Of a DNA stretch of 46,346 nt, positions 5,568 to 29,103 are shown piece by piece; positions within the stretch are counted from its first letter, which is position 1, and every line of letters starts with the position of its first letter. Made by a program: the position numbers and the translations under genes. This DNA is from an archaeon (lineage in GTDB: Archaea; Thermoproteota; Nitrososphaeria; Conexivisphaerales; DTJL01), in the NCBI GenBank assembly GCA_021811935.1, contig JAKAPW010000003.1, positions 1-46,346 of the forward strand. The letters run 5' to 3'. The notes beneath the pieces were generated by a model. That model ran no database searches. It was not told the DNA's origin and worked only from the letters and a program-made list of their open reading frames with translations.

Positions 5568-7760
5568 TTACTCGCTGTCTATGAAGTCGCTCGCCGGAGG
5601 CACGTCCTCGGGGAGGCCCTTCCTCTTCCTCACCTGGGATATTATCTGCTTCTGTATCGACGTCGGGACGGGCTGCCAGGACTTGAAGTGGATGTTCCAC
5701 ATCGCCTTCCCCGCCGTGGCGCCCCTCATCACTTCGCTCAGGTCGAATGTCTCGGCCGCGGGTATCTCCCCCTCCACTATCGCGAGCACCTCCTTCTGCT
5801 CTATGTTCAGCAGCTTGCCTCTCTTGCTCGAGAGGACGCCCGCGACGGCGCCTATCTGGTCCACGCCGCACTTCACCTCTATCCCCTGTATCGGCTCCAG
5901 CAGCGTGGGGCGGGCGCTGAGCATGGCGCCGAGGACGGCCCTCCTCGCCGCGGGCATAAGCTGCGCATAGGTCCTGTGCGCGGGGTCTTCGTGGGGGACG
6001 AAGTGGTGGACTATCACCTTCACCCCCCTGCAGAACTCGTAGGCCAGCGGGCCGTTGTTCATGACGTCCTCGAACCCTGCCCTCAGCGAATCCATGGATT
6101 CCTGCATGAACTGGACGCCCTTGGTCTGGTCCAGGAGCATGTTCCCCTTTTCGTCCACCGCGGCGACGCTCCTGGCCTCGTCGGAGTCCCAGCCCATGTC
6201 GCGGAGCATCTTCGCGATCCCCTTCTTGTCGGCCGTCTCGCTTATCTCTCCCAGCCTTATCTTGGCCACTATCTGTTCCGACAGCGGCTCCACCCTGACG
6301 TACACCTTGTTGTGCCTGTTGGGGCTCTTCGACATTATGGGGCCGGCCTTGGCCTGTATGGTCTCCCTGTAGTTGATCAGAGGCGGGCTCGTTACTATGT
6401 CAAGGCCCTGCTGCTGCAGCATCGTGGTCGCTATCTCCAGGTGCAGCACCCCCATCCCGGCCATGAGCGTCTCCCCCGATTCTTCGTTTATCCTGATTAT
6501 CAGGTTGGGGTCCTCCACGTGCATCCTCTGCAGCCCCTCGACCAGCTTCGGGAGGTCCCTCGGGTTCTTCGCCTCGACGGCCACGGTGACCACGGGCTCC
6601 GACACGTACTTTATCCCCTCGAAGGCGGTCAGCCCTTTGATGGATGAGAGCGTCTCGCCGGACCGGGCGGCCTCCAGGCCGAGCAGCGCCGGGATGTTGC
6701 CGGACGGGAGCGCCCCGACCATCTCCCTGACGTTGCCCATGTACATGTTCACGCTCTGCACCCTTCCCTGGACCTTCCCGTCGATCAGGTAGACCGAATC
6801 GCCGTCCCTTACCGTGCCGCTGAAGAGCCTCCCCGTCGCGACCAGCCCCGCCTGGGGGTCGACCACGACGTTGGTGACCATCATGACTATGGGACCGTTT
6901 TCGTCGCACTTGATGAGGGCCTGCCCGACTTCGCTGCTTATGTCCCCCTTCCATATCTTGGGTATCCTGTAGGACTGGGCCAGCTGCGGAGGCGGGTGGT
7001 GCATTATCACCATGGTCAGTATGGCCTCGTGCAGCGGGGACTTCTCGGCCAGGGTCTTCGGGTCGCCCGTCGTGTAGGCCTCATATACGTCCTTGAACCC
7101 CATGCCGTTCCTCTTCGCCATGTTGAAGTTGAACCCCCACTTGTCCTTGGAGCTGCCGAAGGCCACGCTGTTCTCCTGTATGCTGACCTTCCACTTGTCC
7201 CTGAACTCGGGCTCGGCGTAGAGGTTGACCAGGTTGTTGAATTCGCCGATTATCCCGGCCAGCCAGGTCTGCATCCTGTCCGGCGTCAGTCTCAGCTCCT
7301 TGACCAGCCTGTCTATCTTGTTGATGTAGAGGACGGGCCGGACCCTTTCCTCAAGGGCCTGCCTGGTCACCGTCTCCGTCTGCGTCATGACGCCCTCCAC
7401 GGAGTCGACCACCACGACCGCGCCGTCTATGGCCCTGAGGCTCCTGGTCACCTTGCCAGTGAAGTCGATGTGGCCAGGGGTGTCTATCATGTTGAAGACG
7501 TAGGGCTTCCCGTCGTGCTCGTAGTGGAGGGTGACGTTCGCCGCCTTTATCGTCATCTGCCTCTGCTGCTCGAGCTCCATGTAGTCCAGGGCCAGGGCCT
7601 GCCCCGCCACGCTGGGGCTGAGCATGCCGCAGGCCGCCAGGAGCGAGTCGGAGGTGGTGGTCTTCCCGTGGTCGACGTGTGCTATCACGCCGAAGTTCCT
7701 GATCTGCTCCTTGTCGGAAATTATCTTCAGTGCTTCCGTGGTGGACTTAAAACGCGGCAA
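5568..7760 (-). CDS. fusA: Translation elongation factor aEF-2
   Basis: GVIAHVDHGKTTTSDSLLAACG, DTPGHIDFTGKVTRSLRAIDG, NKIDR, C-terminal HFVPHEDPAHRTYAQ and IRKRKGL-type end. TTG start (LPRFKSTTEALKII) preferred over the 784-aa ORF. Confidence 0.93.
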   Translation of the reverse strand: MPRFKSTTEALKIISDKEQIRNFGVIAHVDHGKTTTSDSLLAACGMLSPSVAGQALALDYMELEQQRQMTIKAANVTLHYEHDGKPYVFNMIDTPGHIDFTGKVTRSLRAIDGAVVVVDSVEGVMTQTETVTRQALEERVRPVLYINKIDRLVKELRLTPDRMQTWLAGIIGEFNNLVNLYAEPEFRDKWKVSIQENSVAFGSSKDKWGFNFNMAKRNGMGFKDVYEAYTTGDPKTLAEKSPLHEAILTMVIMHHPPPQLAQSYRIPKIWKGDISSEVGQALIKCDENGPIVMMVTNVVVDPQAGLVATGRLFSGTVRDGDSVYLIDGKVQGRVQSVNMYMGNVREMVGALPSGNIPALLGLEAARSGETLSSIKGLTAFEGIKYVSEPVVTVAVEAKNPRDLPKLVEGLQRMHVEDPNLIIRINEESGETLMAGMGVLHLEIATTMLQQQGLDIVTSPPLINYRETIQAKAGPIMSKSPNRHNKVYVRVEPLSEQIVAKIRLGEISETADKKGIAKMLRDMGWDSDEARSVAAVDEKGNMLLDQTKGVQFMQESMDSLRAGFEDVMNNGPLAYEFCRGVKVIVHHFVPHEDPAHRTYAQLMPAARRAVLGAMLSARPTLLEPIQGIEVKCGVDQIGAVAGVLSSKRGKLLNIEQKEVLAIVEGEIPAAETFDLSEVMRGATAGKAMWNIHFKSWQPVPTSIQKQIISQVRKRKGLPEDVPPASDFIDSE

Positions 7761-7783
7761 GATGCAGCATCCTCCCTCGATAT

Positions 7784-7800
7784 CCTTTGTTGGACAAAGG
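7784..7800 (-). promoter_or_regulatory. Hairpin in the fusA 5' leader
   Basis: CCTTTG-TTGGA-CAAAGG perfect 6-bp stem between the putative TATA (minus CCTTAAATG, ~7820) and the SD-like GAGGGAGG near the TTG start. Confidence 0.35.
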
Positions 7801-7920
7801 CCCCTTGGGCACGCATTTAAGGCTTTGCGACGCGCGCTCGCGCTCTCGTCCTGCGGAGGTCGAAGGTTGCTCGTGGGGCGCCCGCCAACGCTTAATAGCA
7901 CCCGCGACGTAACGTATGTC

Positions 7921-8124
7921 ATGACGGAAAAGCCCTGGATGAAACAGGAGAAGGGCGAGCCGGTCCCGTTCTTCGACCAGGACGTCTGGTGCCCGAAGTG
8001 TGAAAAGGAGACGAAGCACAGGCTCGCGAGCCCCGGCTACGAAACGCCGTCTCCGTACTTCGGAGGGCGCTTTTTCATGCCGGCCGTGCTGGAGTGCCAG
8101 GCCTGCAAGGTGAAGCACACCTAA
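7921..8124 (+). CDS. Small zinc-ribbon-like protein (67 aa)
   Basis: MTEKPWMKQEKGEPVPFFDQDVWCPKCEKETKHRL...LECQACKVKHT with two CxxC pairs; upstream TATA-like CTTAATAG. Confidence 0.65.
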   Translation: MTEKPWMKQEKGEPVPFFDQDVWCPKCEKETKHRLASPGYETPSPYFGGRFFMPAVLECQACKVKHT

Positions 8125-17587: not shown

Positions 17588-19636
17588 ATGGCGGGACAGT
17601 CTGCGGGGACCATAAGCGACCAGCTGGACATGTTCTTGAGGAGCTTCAAGTCCTCTGACGGCTCCGAGAAATACATAGCGAGGGTGGACAGGATGATAGC
17701 GGACGGGCAGACGTCCGTGAGGATAGACTACGAGGACCTGCTTTCCTACGATGCGGAGCTGGCGACCTCTCTGATCGCCAACCCCGACGGCATACTGCAC
17801 GACTTCAAGGACGCCGCGCTGCAGGTGGTCCGGACAGAAAACATAGCATACGCCGACCGGATAGAAAAGGAGCTGGAGATCAGGATAACGGGCCTGATCG
17901 ACAAGCTCCCGCTGAGGGGCGTCTCGGCCAGGAGCCTGGACAGGCTGGTCGCGCTGAGCGGGATGGTGGTCAGGACCTCGGAGGTGAAGCCGAAGGTGCT
18001 CGTCGCGACCTTCAGGGACCCGAACGACCACGCCACGAACGTCGTCCAGCTCACCTCTACGCTGAAGAAGCCCGAGAGGTGCGCCGAATGCGACGAGACG
18101 AAGAACTTCGAGCTGGACACCAAACTGAGCAGGTTCACGGACTACCAGTCGATCAGGCTTCAGGAGCTCCCCGAAGAGCTGCCCCCCGGGCAGCTGCCCC
18201 AGTCCATAGACGCCGAGCTGCTGGGGGATCTGGTGAACAGGGCAAGGCCCGGAGACAGGGTGGTCGTCACGGGCGTGGTCAGGGCGGACCCCGAGAGCGC
18301 CATCGGGGCCGGAAGGCAGACGACGTTCCGGACCAGGCTCGAGACGAACGACCTGGACGTGAGGGGGAAGGAGCTCGAGCAGATAATGATCACCCCCGAC
18401 GACGAGGCTGCCATAAGGAGGATAGCGGAGTCGCCCACCGCCTACGAGGACCTGATAAAGTCCGTCTCCCCCTCGATATACGGCTTCGAGACGCAGAAGG
18501 AGGCGGCGCTGCTCGTGCTGGTGGGCGCCCCCCAGAGGTCGCTCCCCGACCAGACCACGATAAGGGGGGACCTGAACCTGCTGCTCGTGGGCGACCCGGG
18601 CACGGCCAAGAGCGAGCTGCTGAAGTACGTGGCCAGGCTCGCCCCAAGGGGGCTCTACACCACGGGAAGGGGCAGCACCGCCGCGGGGCTCACCGCGGCC
18701 GTCGTGAAGGAGAAGAGCGGGCTGATGATGCTGGAGGCGGGAGCAGTGGTGCTGGCAGACCTTGGCGTGGCTTGCATAGACGAATTCGACAAGATGAGGC
18801 CAGAGGATAGGGGGGTGCTGCACGAGGTGATGGAGCAGCAGACGGTCTCCGTGGCCAAGGGAGGGATAGTAGCGACGCTCAACGCGAGGACGTCCATCCT
18901 GGCGGCGGCGAACCCGCTGCTCGGAAGGTACGACCCGTACAAGAACATCTACGAAAACGTGAACCTCCCCATACCGCTGCTCACCAGGTTCGACACGATA
19001 TTCATAGTCAGGGACAATCCGGACAGGACCACCGACGAAAGGCTGGCGACCCACATACTGGAGACGCACAGGAGCAGGCAGTTCATCGTCCCGCCGCCCA
19101 TAGAATTCGACCTGCTCCGCAAGTACATAGCGTACGCCAAGAAGATCGAGCCCCTGCTGCTCCCGGAGGCGGAGTCGAAGCTGCTGGAGTTCTACCTTGA
19201 GATGAGGGGGATGGGCGCCCAGGACAACATGATAACGGTCACCCCCAGGCAGCTGGAGGCGCTTGTGAGGCTGGCGACGGCCAGGGCGAGGGTGCTGCTG
19301 AGGGACAAGGTGACGGAGGAGGACGCGCTCCAGGCGATCTCCATCATGAGGAGGATGCTGGGCACGGTCGGGATCGACGTCAAGACGGGCAAGATAGACA
19401 TAGGCGTGATACAGGGCAGGCCGTCCAGCGAAAGGACGCTGATAGAGCTGGCGATGGAGGTGTTCAAGGGGCTCCAGGGGCCGGAGAGGACGCCGGTCCA
19501 GGTGAAGGACTTCGTCGACTCCCTGGAGAAGACGGGCAAGTTCAACAGGGAGGAGGCCAGGAAGATGGTCAACATGCTGTACAAGCTGGGACAGATCTAC
19601 GAGATAAAGCCGGACCTCTACAGTCGGATAAGTTAG
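17588..19636 (+). CDS. mcm: MCM replicative helicase
   Basis: VGDPGTAKSELLKYVARLAPRGLYTTGRGSTAAGLTAAV, LADLGVACIDEFDKM, ILAAANPLLGRYD, LLTRFDTIFIVRD, winged helix end. Confidence 0.95.
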   Translation: MAGQSAGTISDQLDMFLRSFKSSDGSEKYIARVDRMIADGQTSVRIDYEDLLSYDAELATSLIANPDGILHDFKDAALQVVRTENIAYADRIEKELEIRITGLIDKLPLRGVSARSLDRLVALSGMVVRTSEVKPKVLVATFRDPNDHATNVVQLTSTLKKPERCAECDETKNFELDTKLSRFTDYQSIRLQELPEELPPGQLPQSIDAELLGDLVNRARPGDRVVVTGVVRADPESAIGAGRQTTFRTRLETNDLDVRGKELEQIMITPDDEAAIRRIAESPTAYEDLIKSVSPSIYGFETQKEAALLVLVGAPQRSLPDQTTIRGDLNLLLVGDPGTAKSELLKYVARLAPRGLYTTGRGSTAAGLTAAVVKEKSGLMMLEAGAVVLADLGVACIDEFDKMRPEDRGVLHEVMEQQTVSVAKGGIVATLNARTSILAAANPLLGRYDPYKNIYENVNLPIPLLTRFDTIFIVRDNPDRTTDERLATHILETHRSRQFIVPPPIEFDLLRKYIAYAKKIEPLLLPEAESKLLEFYLEMRGMGAQDNMITVTPRQLEALVRLATARARVLLRDKVTEEDALQAISIMRRMLGTVGIDVKTGKIDIGVIQGRPSSERTLIELAMEVFKGLQGPERTPVQVKDFVDSLEKTGKFNREEARKMVNMLYKLGQIYEIKPDLYSRIS

Positions 19637-25628: not shown

Positions 25629-26216
25629 TCAGGTCTGGAAGACCATCTTCGAGGCCCTGTAATATATTATTTCACCCCTCCTCTCGACGACGCCGACCAG
25701 GGGCTCCTTGCCCATCCGGTATATCGTCTCCGTCATCCGCTTCAGGGAGGACAGGCTAGTCTTCTCGCCTTCGTTGAGCGGGAGGACGACGAACTTCGCC
25801 GCCGACTTGCCGTACTCCCCCCTGTCGTAGACCCGCAGGTCCGACCTGATGCCGTAGCCCTCCCTGACCACGTACCCCCTGCTCCTGAGGTCGCGGTAGA
25901 GGAGGAATTTGGTCCATCCTCTCTTGTCCTCCTTCAGAGAGCGGTCGGCCAACCCCTCGAACGCCAGCGTCCCGCCGGCCTGGTCCAGCACGGTCAGGAG
26001 CCCCATCCTCACCAGATACATCGCTTCGTAGATGCGGAGATGCACCGTCCCGGTCCCGGTCCCGGTCCCGGTCACCGTCTCCTTCTCCCCGAAGCCTCTC
26101 CGGGTCAGCTCCGAGGAGTCGGGGTCGTCGACGGCTACCACGTTCCCGCTAAGCCTGCCGGTGAAGCTGCGCTGGAGCTGCTCCTCCGTAGCCTGGGGCT
26201 GTACCGGCTCGCTCAT
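25629..26216 (-). CDS. endA: tRNA-splicing endonuclease subunit (EndA family), catalytic His not conserved
   Basis: FTGRLSGNVVAVDDP...LRIYEAMYLVRMGLL N-domain; LYRDLRSRGYVVREGYGIRSDLRVYDRGEYGKSAAKFVVLP...GKEPLVGVVERRGEIIYY C-domain. ATG at 26216 follows a TATA box. Confidence 0.85.
   Translation of the reverse strand: MSEPVQPQATEEQLQRSFTGRLSGNVVAVDDPDSSELTRRGFGEKETVTGTGTGTGTVHLRIYEAMYLVRMGLLTVLDQAGGTLAFEGLADRSLKEDKRGWTKFLLYRDLRSRGYVVREGYGIRSDLRVYDRGEYGKSAAKFVVLPLNEGEKTSLSSLKRMTETIYRMGKEPLVGVVERRGEIIYYRASKMVFQT
26047..26073. repeat. In-frame hexanucleotide tandem repeat (GTCCCG)x4.5 inside endA
   Basis: gtcccg gtcccg gtcccg gtcccg gtc on the + strand, encoding a TG dipeptide repeat (ETVTGTGTGTGTVH). 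Confidence 0.95.
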
Positions 26217-26241
26217 GTCAGGCTCGGTGCGTGCGGCGGGC

Positions 26242-26253
26242 TTTTTATAAAGA
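26242..26253 (-). promoter_or_regulatory. TATA box for endA
   Basis: Minus strand TCTTTATAAAAAG, ~26 nt upstream of ATG 26216. Confidence 0.55.
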
Positions 26254-26267
26254 GTTTGGGAAGGAGA

Positions 26268-26287
26268 CCGCCGGATTCGTCCGGCGG
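26268..26287. other. Perfect hairpin in the rtcB-endA spacer
   Basis: CCGCCGGA-TTCG-TCCGGCGG, 8-bp stem with TTCG loop. Confidence 0.75.
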
Positions 26288-26304
26288 ATGAACGCATCCA
26301 AGGC

Positions 26305-26349: not shown

Positions 26350-29103
26350 TCACCCCTTTACCACGCCTATCGGCGTCATCCGCACCACCTTCAGCGCCAG
26401 CCCCAGGTTGTGTGTCACTTCGACCACGCCGTCCACGTCCTTGTAGGCACCCGGCGCCTCCTCGACCACCGTCTCCTTGCTCGCCGCCCTGATCAGTATC
26501 CCCTTGCTCCTGAGGTCGTTCACCAGGGCGCCGTATTCATGCCTCCTCTTCGCGGCTCCCCTGCTCATGAACCTGCCGGCTCCGTGCGCCGCGCTGCCGA
26601 AGGTCAGTTCCAGGCTCTTCGGCCCGCCCCTGAGCACCCAGGAGGAGGTTCCCATGCTCCCCGGTATCAGCACCGGCTGCCCGTGCCGCCTGTACTCCTG
26701 CGGGATGAAGGGAGAGCCCGGCGGGAAGGCCCTCGTGGCGCCCTTCCTGTGGACGTAGACCGTCCTGCGGACGCCGTCCACGTCGTGCTCTTCCCTCTTG
26801 ACTATGTTGTGGGCGACGTCGTAGACCAGGCCCATCTGCATCTCCTCCGGGTCGCGCCTGAAGACCTTGGAGAAGGCCTTCCTGATCCAGTGGGTTATCA
26901 TCTGCCTGTTTGCCCAGGCGAAGTTGGCCGCGCTGGCCATCGCCCCCAGATAGTCCTCCGTCTCCCTGGCCTTGATGGGGCCGGCCGCCAGCTCCCTGTC
27001 CGGCAGGACGAGGGACTCCCTGCGCATCACGCCCTCCATCGTCCTGAGGTAGTCGCTGCAGACCTGGTGGCCGAAGCCCCTGCTCCCGGTGTGGACGAGG
27101 ACCAGCATCTGCCCCGTCTCCGTGATGCCCATCGCCTTCGCCGCCTGCTCGTCGAAGACCTGGTTGACCCTCTCTATTTCGAGGAAGTGGTTCCCGCTCC
27201 CCAGGGTGCCCAGCTGCCCGGCCCCGCGCTTCCTGGCCGTCTGTGACACCTTCTCCGGCTTCGCCCACTGGAGCCTGCCGTTCTCCTCCGCGTGTTCCAC
27301 GTCGCCCTGCCATCCGTAGCCCTTTTCGACCGCCCACTGGGCTCCTCCCTGGCCGACCCCGTCCAGCTCCGAAGGGTTGACCCGGAGCTGCCCCTCGCTC
27401 CCGACGCCGCTGGGCACGCCCCTGTAGAGCTCCTCCAGCAGCTCCTGCAGCTTCGGCCTCACGTCGCTCTCCGTCAGGTTCGTCCTGATCAGCCTGACCC
27501 CGCAGTTCGAGACCACGACCCCGTTGGCCACGAAGTTATGGTTCTCGTTGCCCACGGTGATGTCGAAGACGGGCCCGCCATACCCCTCGATCGCTATGCC
27601 CTCTATCCTGTCGTAGGCGAGGCCGCCCTTCCCCAGCGCGGACCTTTCCACGAACTCGCCGAACCCCAGCGCGCGGCCGTCGGCGAGCAGCAGGACGCTG
27701 CCCCCCTCGGTCCCCGCCGTCGTCGCCGGCGCCGGGTCCCCTTCGGCGCAGGACAGGTAGAGCGCGTGCAGGCTGGCGAGCGCCTCCTTCTCCCCGCTGT
27801 ACGCGTAGCCCACCGTGCCGTAGAACCTCCTCAGGTTGCCGGCCTCCGGCGAGATGGCGAGGCGGGCCTCCCGTCCGTCGCCGGCGCGCGGCCGGGCGAC
27901 CTCCGAGTCCACCCCGAGCGACTTCAGCATCTTCCTTATGTCGAGCAGGAAATCGGCCGCCCCCTCCCCCCGCACGCCCAGCGCGGGGCCGGCGAGGTCG
28001 GGCCCGGACAGCTTCGCGCCGAAGAATGCCGCCAGGAAGATCCTCTTCTGCCAGTCCTCGGAGTCCGCCACCCATCCGGGGGCACGGCGGCCCCCGCCGC
28101 CCACGGGCGCCCCGAGCGCCGCGAGGAGCGAGGAGAAGGCGGTCGAGCGGACGACGAGGGCCGGGTCGCCCGTCGGACCCGCCCCGCCGCGGCGCACCGT
28201 GCACGCGAAGCCGAGCGAACGGACGTCCTTCCGGACCCTCTCCAGGTCCTCTTCCCTCCCGCGGAACGTGGCGCAGGCCCGCCCCTGCCAGGCGCGGACC
28301 GTCCCGCCCCCGACGGCCAGGCCGAGGAGCCCCATGAGAGGGGGGAGCCTGGCGCTCCGCGAGTCGATCCCGAGAAGCCCGCGCCGGCGCAGGAGGCCCA
28401 GGGCCCGGGACTTCGCGCCGGCAGCGGCCCCGAACGAGTCCAGCGCCCTGGAGACAGCCTCCTCCGAGAGGACCACCCCGTCCGCGGGGCGGGTGTACCT
28501 CACGCCCTCGAAGCCCGTCACCACAACGTCGTCCCCGGCCCTCAGGCGGCCGGCGGGCACCATCCCCCTTCTGGTGAGGATCGGATGGTCCGCGGTGGCG
28601 ACTATCTCCTTCCCGAACTTCGTCCTGATCCTGGCTATCGTCCCGCTGTGCTCCTTCACCATGAACAGCACTGGCCTGGTGTCGATGAGCGCGCCCTCCT
28701 TCATGTCCAGCGTCAGCGTCCCCCGCCATTCCTCCCCGACGTCGGATATCTTCTGCCACGCGCCGTAGCCGTCGAGCACCCTCGTTTCCGGGTGCAGGCA
28801 GTTGATGTCGTACCCCACCCCGCCGGGGGAGATGACTCCATCCTCGGCGTCCTCGGCGGCCACACCGCCGATCGGGAAGCCGTAGCCCTCGTGGGCGTCA
28901 GGCAGCGCTATGGAGTATTTCAGCAGGCCCGGCAGCGACGCCACGTTCGCCGCCTGACCGAGCGTCCTGTCCTCCTGCATCTTCTTCATCAGCGACTCGT
29001 CGGCGAATATCCTGGCCGGTACCCTCATAGTCGGCCTGAAGCTCTTCGGAATCTCCCATATGCTGTCCGCCACCCTCTCCAACGGTATCGACATCTCATG
29101 CAC
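26350..29103 (-). CDS. rtcB: RtcB RNA-splicing ligase precursor interrupted by an intein (exteins ~101 + 384 aa)
   Basis: N-extein IALPDAHEGYGFPIGGVAAEDAEDGVISPGGVGYDIN and C-extein CGVRLIRTNLTESDV...GSGNHFLEIERV...HTGSRGFGHQV...GSMGTSSWVLRG are RtcB motifs. Start may be ATG 29094 after SD-like GAGGTG. Confidence 0.96.
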   Translation of the reverse strand: MHEMSIPLERVADSIWEIPKSFRPTMRVPARIFADESLMKKMQEDRTLGQAANVASLPGLLKYSIALPDAHEGYGFPIGGVAAEDAEDGVISPGGVGYDINCLHPETRVLDGYGAWQKISDVGEEWRGTLTLDMKEGALIDTRPVLFMVKEHSGTIARIRTKFGKEIVATADHPILTRRGMVPAGRLRAGDDVVVTGFEGVRYTRPADGVVLSEEAVSRALDSFGAAAGAKSRALGLLRRRGLLGIDSRSARLPPLMGLLGLAVGGGTVRAWQGRACATFRGREEDLERVRKDVRSLGFACTVRRGGAGPTGDPALVVRSTAFSSLLAALGAPVGGGGRRAPGWVADSEDWQKRIFLAAFFGAKLSGPDLAGPALGVRGEGAADFLLDIRKMLKSLGVDSEVARPRAGDGREARLAISPEAGNLRRFYGTVGYAYSGEKEALASLHALYLSCAEGDPAPATTAGTEGGSVLLLADGRALGFGEFVERSALGKGGLAYDRIEGIAIEGYGGPVFDITVGNENHNFVANGVVVSNCGVRLIRTNLTESDVRPKLQELLEELYRGVPSGVGSEGQLRVNPSELDGVGQGGAQWAVEKGYGWQGDVEHAEENGRLQWAKPEKVSQTARKRGAGQLGTLGSGNHFLEIERVNQVFDEQAAKAMGITETGQMLVLVHTGSRGFGHQVCSDYLRTMEGVMRRESLVLPDRELAAGPIKARETEDYLGAMASAANFAWANRQMITHWIRKAFSKVFRRDPEEMQMGLVYDVAHNIVKREEHDVDGVRRTVYVHRKGATRAFPPGSPFIPQEYRRHGQPVLIPGSMGTSSWVLRGGPKSLELTFGSAAHGAGRFMSRGAAKRRHEYGALVNDLRSKGILIRAASKETVVEEAPGAYKDVDGVVEVTHNLGLALKVVRMTPIGVVKG
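27505..28800 (-). mobile_element. Intein (432 aa) with degenerate LAGLIDADG homing endonuclease domain
   Basis: Block A CLHPETRVLDGYG; block B GKEIVATADHPILTRRG; degenerate block C LMGLLGLAVGGGTV and block E FLAAFFGAKLSG; blocks F/G GPVFDITVGNENHNFVANGVVVSN followed by Cys+1. Confidence 0.94.

Follow-up and report, generated by a model that had tools for sequence, protein, structure and literature searches.

The rtcB (RNA ligase) gene in the 46,346-nucleotide stretch of archaeal DNA analysed here (the window) very probably carries a self-splicing intein, inserted at the Mn-ligand cysteine of RtcB, whose endonuclease is dead and has lost the capacity for homing, and whose splicing is retained because rtcB requires it. 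From comparison with related inteins we infer that the protein splices and that its endonuclease no longer cleaves DNA.

The insert and its host gene

The rtcB precursor reading frame lies on the minus strand at positions 26350–29103, is 917 codons long when counted from its GTG, and matches PF01139 with an E-value of 3.7e-167. The PDB RtcBs 1uc2, 7lfq and 4dwr match precursor residues 4–102 and 533–917 (E about 1e-180) and are contiguous at the point of insertion; homologues thus align on either side of residues 102–533, and an alignment that runs through them, which an earlier note on this DNA had said would speak against an intein, is not seen. Alignment to these proteins places the N-extein at residues 1–101 (28801–29103, minus strand; it ends in PGGVGYDIN), and the C-extein, which with its stop codon spans 26350–27504 on the same strand, starts at Cys+1. 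This cysteine aligns with C98 of Pho RtcB, whose catalytic residues we take to be C98, H203, H234, H329 and H404, and it corresponds to the Mn-ligand cysteine established for Pyrococcus RtcB; the placement of the insert at that residue in the earlier note is borne out by the alignment. When the exteins are joined, every motif that holds the RtcB catalytic Cys and His residues is present. The start codon is likely the ATG at 29094 (codon 4), where homologues begin in alignment to PH1602/1uc2, so the RtcB left after splicing is probably 482 aa long rather than the ~485 aa of the earlier note. This is the single RtcB found in the genome, which also has one copy of archease; since the MAG (1.46 Mb) is 85% complete, a second rtcB could be missing.

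The intein itself is 432 aa long (precursor residues 102–533, C1...S431-N432; 27505–28800, minus strand) and is delimited by HMMs, alignment and predicted structure. It lies in frame, runs from CLHPETRVL to NFVANGVVVSN and is flanked as GYDIN|C, in a host protein that is otherwise contiguous. The intein HMM searches that the note had proposed gave matches to PF14890 (5.5e-12), to TIGR01445 (7.5e-12, from residue 102) and to TIGR01443 (1.7e-7, up to residue 534). The N- and C-terminal matches fit the predicted junctions, and the coordinates and sequences given for the 432-aa intein are correct. The model NF038162 for “intein-containing RtcB” matches at 1.5e-296 overall with a score of 986, short of the curated NCBIfam cut-off of 1150, a shortfall for which the deletions described below probably account; the intein is homologous to the members of that group that lie between GYDIN and CGVRL. 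Its N-terminal splicing (Hint) part comprises intein residues 1–98 (28507–28800, minus strand; the TIGR01445 match), with Block A at C1 and Block B at T69-x-x-H72, and its C-terminal splicing part comprises residues 394–432 (27505–27621, minus strand; the TIGR01443 match), with Blocks F and G and the ending VVVSN. The residues C1, T69-x-x-H72, D413, H421, N432 and C+1 make up the class 1 signature, and all 16 of the splicing positions that are invariant in 18 clade relatives are retained, in both the N- and C-terminal parts. Judged by its sequence, this is a class-1 intein (Cys1...Asn, Cys+1) at the commonest RtcB insertion site with its splicing blocks intact.

Class-1 splicing begins at C1 with an N-S acyl shift, followed by transfer to C+1, cyclisation of the terminal asparagine (here Asn432) and an S-N shift. 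By this route the intein would excise itself after translation and join the exteins into an RtcB of 482–485 aa. Since the insert interrupts the active site immediately ahead of the Mn-binding cysteine, the unspliced precursor should have no activity. Many archaea and bacteria carry inteins in RtcB, which the earlier note had described as a known intein host, and the majority of those extracted lie at GYDIN|CGVRL. A few lie elsewhere, at WGYGF|C, just before GYDINC or at MVH|CGSRG, with Cys as the +1 residue in each example (loci L115, L133, L138, L142 and L144, of which L142 has a stop within its last residues as extracted). Of 75 aligned RtcB inteins, 72 have Ser immediately ahead of the terminal Asn, two have His and one has Gly; the suggestion that the penultimate Ser might alter splicing kinetics here is thus not upheld, since Ser is the family norm. 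This near-universal replacement of His by Ser is a trait of RtcB inteins as a family.

Erosion of the endonuclease region

Between the two splicing parts lies an eroded LAGLIDADG homing-endonuclease region (intein residues 99–393; 27622–28506, minus strand) in which both catalytic acids are replaced. Codon 165 (28306–28308, minus strand) encodes Gly in place of the motif 1 Asp (LAVGGGTV versus GDG or SDG), and codon 263 (28012–28014, minus strand) encodes Lys in place of the motif 2 Glu or Asp (FGAKL versus FGAEL), so the one acid per motif that characterizes active LAGLIDADG enzymes is present in neither. The D plus E/D pair occurs in 72 of the 75 RtcB inteins compared; the motif 1 Asp is present in 72, and the three inteins without it are one from Micrarchaeota (Gly), one from Thermoproteota (Asn) and the present one (Gly). 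At motif 2 the present intein has Lys and the other 74 have Glu or Asp, which makes this the only intein of the set that lacks both acids (D165G and E263K). The search patterns used to collect these inteins included the hydrophobic parts of motif 2 and excluded its acidic residue, so this outcome is not imposed by the way the set was collected; RtcB inteins that lack any endonuclease may, however, be under-sampled in it. The absence of both acids claimed in the earlier note therefore stands, with GGG for GDG and with FGAKL, but its choice of FxDADG as the reference for the second motif does not; the RtcB-intein baseline is FGAE(L/M), and the change reads as Glu to Lys.

The region has also been shortened. 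The intein is 432 aa long versus 453–518 aa in its relatives, with deletions of 12, 3, 7, 5, 8, 10 and 23 residues at places where all 18 clade members have sequence. Among the deleted parts are RKRHHKITTAYG, which forms a basic loop, and the HTH-like SxxFxxHxx...ARIW stretch; by their composition, both probably contact DNA in the relatives. The net charge of the endonuclease region does not differ from that of relatives, and the lack of a Pfam LAGLIDADG match was dropped as evidence of decay because relatives that have both acids also score weakly.

Conservation in the two halves of the insert is unequal. Among columns invariant in the 18 relatives, 16 of 16 are kept in the splicing part versus 27 of 42 in the endonuclease (p = 0.006), and when conservation in 16 or more of the 18 is taken as the threshold, 31 of 32 versus 44 of 87 are kept (p = 8e-7); the same count run for each relative as a control gave no more than three endonuclease losses in any of them. 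On a fixed tree the end branch of this intein is 2.7 times as long for the endonuclease (1.37 changes per site) as for the splicing domain (0.51), and the corresponding values for the nearest relative are 0.32 and 0.60. The GC content at codon position 2 (GC2) of the endonuclease is shifted toward the mutational bias: it is 0.59 versus the 0.51 expected from GC3 (z = 3.5), an expectation that involves a small extrapolation since the GC3 of this intein is the highest in the set, and it is the highest of the 75, the next being 0.486; GC2 of the splicing domain is 0.42. The Gly/Ala/Arg/Pro share is 47% versus 31%, the direction in which endonuclease amino acids drift under strong GC bias. Together, the column losses, branch lengths and GC2 indicate that selection has been relaxed in the endonuclease only and kept on splicing.

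In the past, the nested LAGLIDADG endonuclease would have enabled the intein to home into rtcB alleles that lacked it. Loss of mobility is supported by the lost catalytic and probable DNA-contact residues, and homing would no longer be possible because both acids, the basic loop and the HTH-like segment are gone; the insert would nonetheless persist because rtcB needs splicing and an open frame, and precise deletion is rare. The view of the earlier note that mobility has been lost and splicing must be maintained thus gains comparative support from the acids, the deletions and the contrast in selection.

The AlphaFold2 model of the intein has a mean pLDDT of 90.5 and a pTM of 0.91, with pLDDT mostly above 90 in the endonuclease, a confidence that may be inflated because the alignment contains intact homologues. 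Foldseek ranks the TliVMA and PhoVMA inteins first, ahead of further intein endonucleases and I-DmoI. Whole-chain TM-scores are low (0.3–0.4), as might be expected if the two domains are oriented differently. The endonuclease part superimposes on I-DmoI at 3.3–3.9 Å over about 180–198 alignment columns. Given this confident predicted fold and the 27 of 42 invariant positions that are still present, either the decay may be incomplete or a structural constraint may persist.

Distribution, neighbouring genes and alternative explanations

Seventeen RtcBs were found in the order, and this one alone is split at the site; the other 16 are uninterrupted, including a same-genus RtcB whose extein is 80% identical. 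Hence either this lineage acquired the intein or the others have lost it, and dS versus the same-genus rtcB is saturated and gives no date for the insertion. The closest relatives in the tree are from Micrarchaeota; recent transfer from there was considered and rejected, as 43% identity and an unresolved fork give it no support, and viral contigs were rejected as a source, as they gave weak intein-like matches only and no close relative.

Directly downstream of rtcB lies the gene for EndA, the tRNA intron endonuclease (25629–26297, minus strand; PF01974 2.5e-16, PF02778 2.9e-7). The two form a cut-and-ligate gene pair whose adjacency is kept in the other genomes of the family. Elsewhere in the window, MCM (17588–19636, plus strand) and EF-2 (5568–7922, minus strand) are without inteins, although the three other family genomes carry inteins in both. 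The window MCM is nevertheless nearest to the same-genus MCM (78–96% identical per segment), which makes precise intein loss from this gene possible. The MCM helicase reading frame of the same-genus genome G007 (L230:2276-9121) is 2282 aa long with five inteins; the MCMs of G006 and G008 have three and two, respectively, and two sites are common to all three genomes.

Six further inteins were found in the genome that carries the split rtcB (contigs C37, C94, C17 and C103), and inspection of their motifs by eye, an assignment less secure than for RtcB, found both acids in none of them. They are a 411-aa intein in ATP synthase A (YMAGG and YIAAG), a 365-aa intein in IF-2 (one recognisable motif only), a 158-aa mini-intein in eIF2-gamma, two in DNA polymerase B (a 166-aa mini-intein and a 312-aa intein, PolB-2, with ADG and HGG) and a 486-aa intein in a T2S/PilB-type secretion ATPase (AGG, where the same-genus orthologue has ADG, and ADA). 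LAGLIDADG_3 has one sub-threshold match in this genome versus four in each of the three family sister genomes. Tentatively, then, the lineage might keep at least seven core-gene inteins with all their endonucleases inactivated or deleted, which would persist as splicing elements only and whose scaffold or splicing is possibly useful.

The endonuclease scaffold might have been retained because the splicing domain needs it in order to fold or splice, with only catalysis and DNA contact discarded. The confident predicted fold agrees with this, as does the mostly structural nature (Gly, Pro, Trp, Phe) of the retained invariant positions, and a dependence of splicing on the endonuclease scaffold has been discussed for the MvuTFIIB intein (PMC8966425), which offers a parallel. 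It is also favoured by an excess of polar residues at the lost or deleted positions under the 16 of 18 threshold (p = 0.009). That excess is, however, not significant for strictly invariant columns (p = 0.12), the GC2 drift and long branch fall in the same region, and the eIF2-gamma and PolB mini-inteins of the same genome have no endonuclease, so we consider such dependence rather unlikely. Less likely still is that conditional splicing, responsive for example to redox or metals through a +1 Cys that is a metal ligand, regulates RtcB. The insert does sit at the active-site Cys, and conditional splicing has been reported for other inteins (PMC6195587), but no specific feature of this intein favours it, the penultimate Ser is family-wide, and homing into conserved sequence would explain the site preference equally well.

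It is very improbable that the endonuclease still cuts by means of non-canonical residues; although the overall predicted fold appears to be kept, Gly and Lys stand where metal-coordinating acids should be, neither the basic loop nor the HTH-like segment is left, and selection is relaxed. We give even less credence to a faulty assembly of the MAG contig that would have produced an insert or chimera: this genome alone in the order carries the insert, but it is in frame with both junctions precise to the residue, its GC3 of 0.935 matches the 0.913 of the extein, and the rtcB-endA order is the same as in sister genomes. A spliceable insert with a dead endonuclease is the explanation that we favour.

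Comparison with known inteins

Inteins with degenerate nucleases are already established (PhoVMA, for example), so the RtcB intein represents a known life stage and is a clean but ordinary case of it. It does provide an unusually clear snapshot of degeneration in the homing cycle, as selection acts differently on the two halves of one insert, a contrast that shows in their residues and deletions as well as in branch lengths and codon composition. Because empty sites occur in close relatives and intact endonucleases in distant ones, it could serve as a test case for whether a dead scaffold is still needed for splicing. Literature searches for RtcB inteins or PH1602 found nothing directly relevant.

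The nearest known group is that of the RtcB Cys98-site inteins (NF038162; Natrinema thermotolerans, Micrarchaeota and Nitrososphaeria MAGs), which have the insertion residue and splicing blocks in common with this intein and are also alike in the penultimate Ser and a homologous LAGLIDADG region. Identity is 43% to the Micrarchaeota intein L068 and, for inteins from the same taxonomic class, reaches 41% over the part that matched. The N. thermotolerans intein (CP031304) has GDG, FGAEM and VSN|C. Nearly all of the group members compared have D plus E/D, and they are 453–518 aa long, as opposed to G plus K and a length of 432 aa in the present intein. PhoVMA (7qst), the second-best Foldseek match by E-value, is likewise a large intein that keeps its fold with both LAGLIDADG acids gone and, as a solved structure, is the direct precedent (PMC8966425); it differs in host protein and insertion site, and its Block E is truncated whereas here the motif is kept with Lys. 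TliVMA (7qss) and PI-PfuI (1dq3) have the same two-part architecture of splicing domain and LAGLIDADG endonuclease, but their endonucleases are active, unlike the apparently dead one of this RtcB intein.
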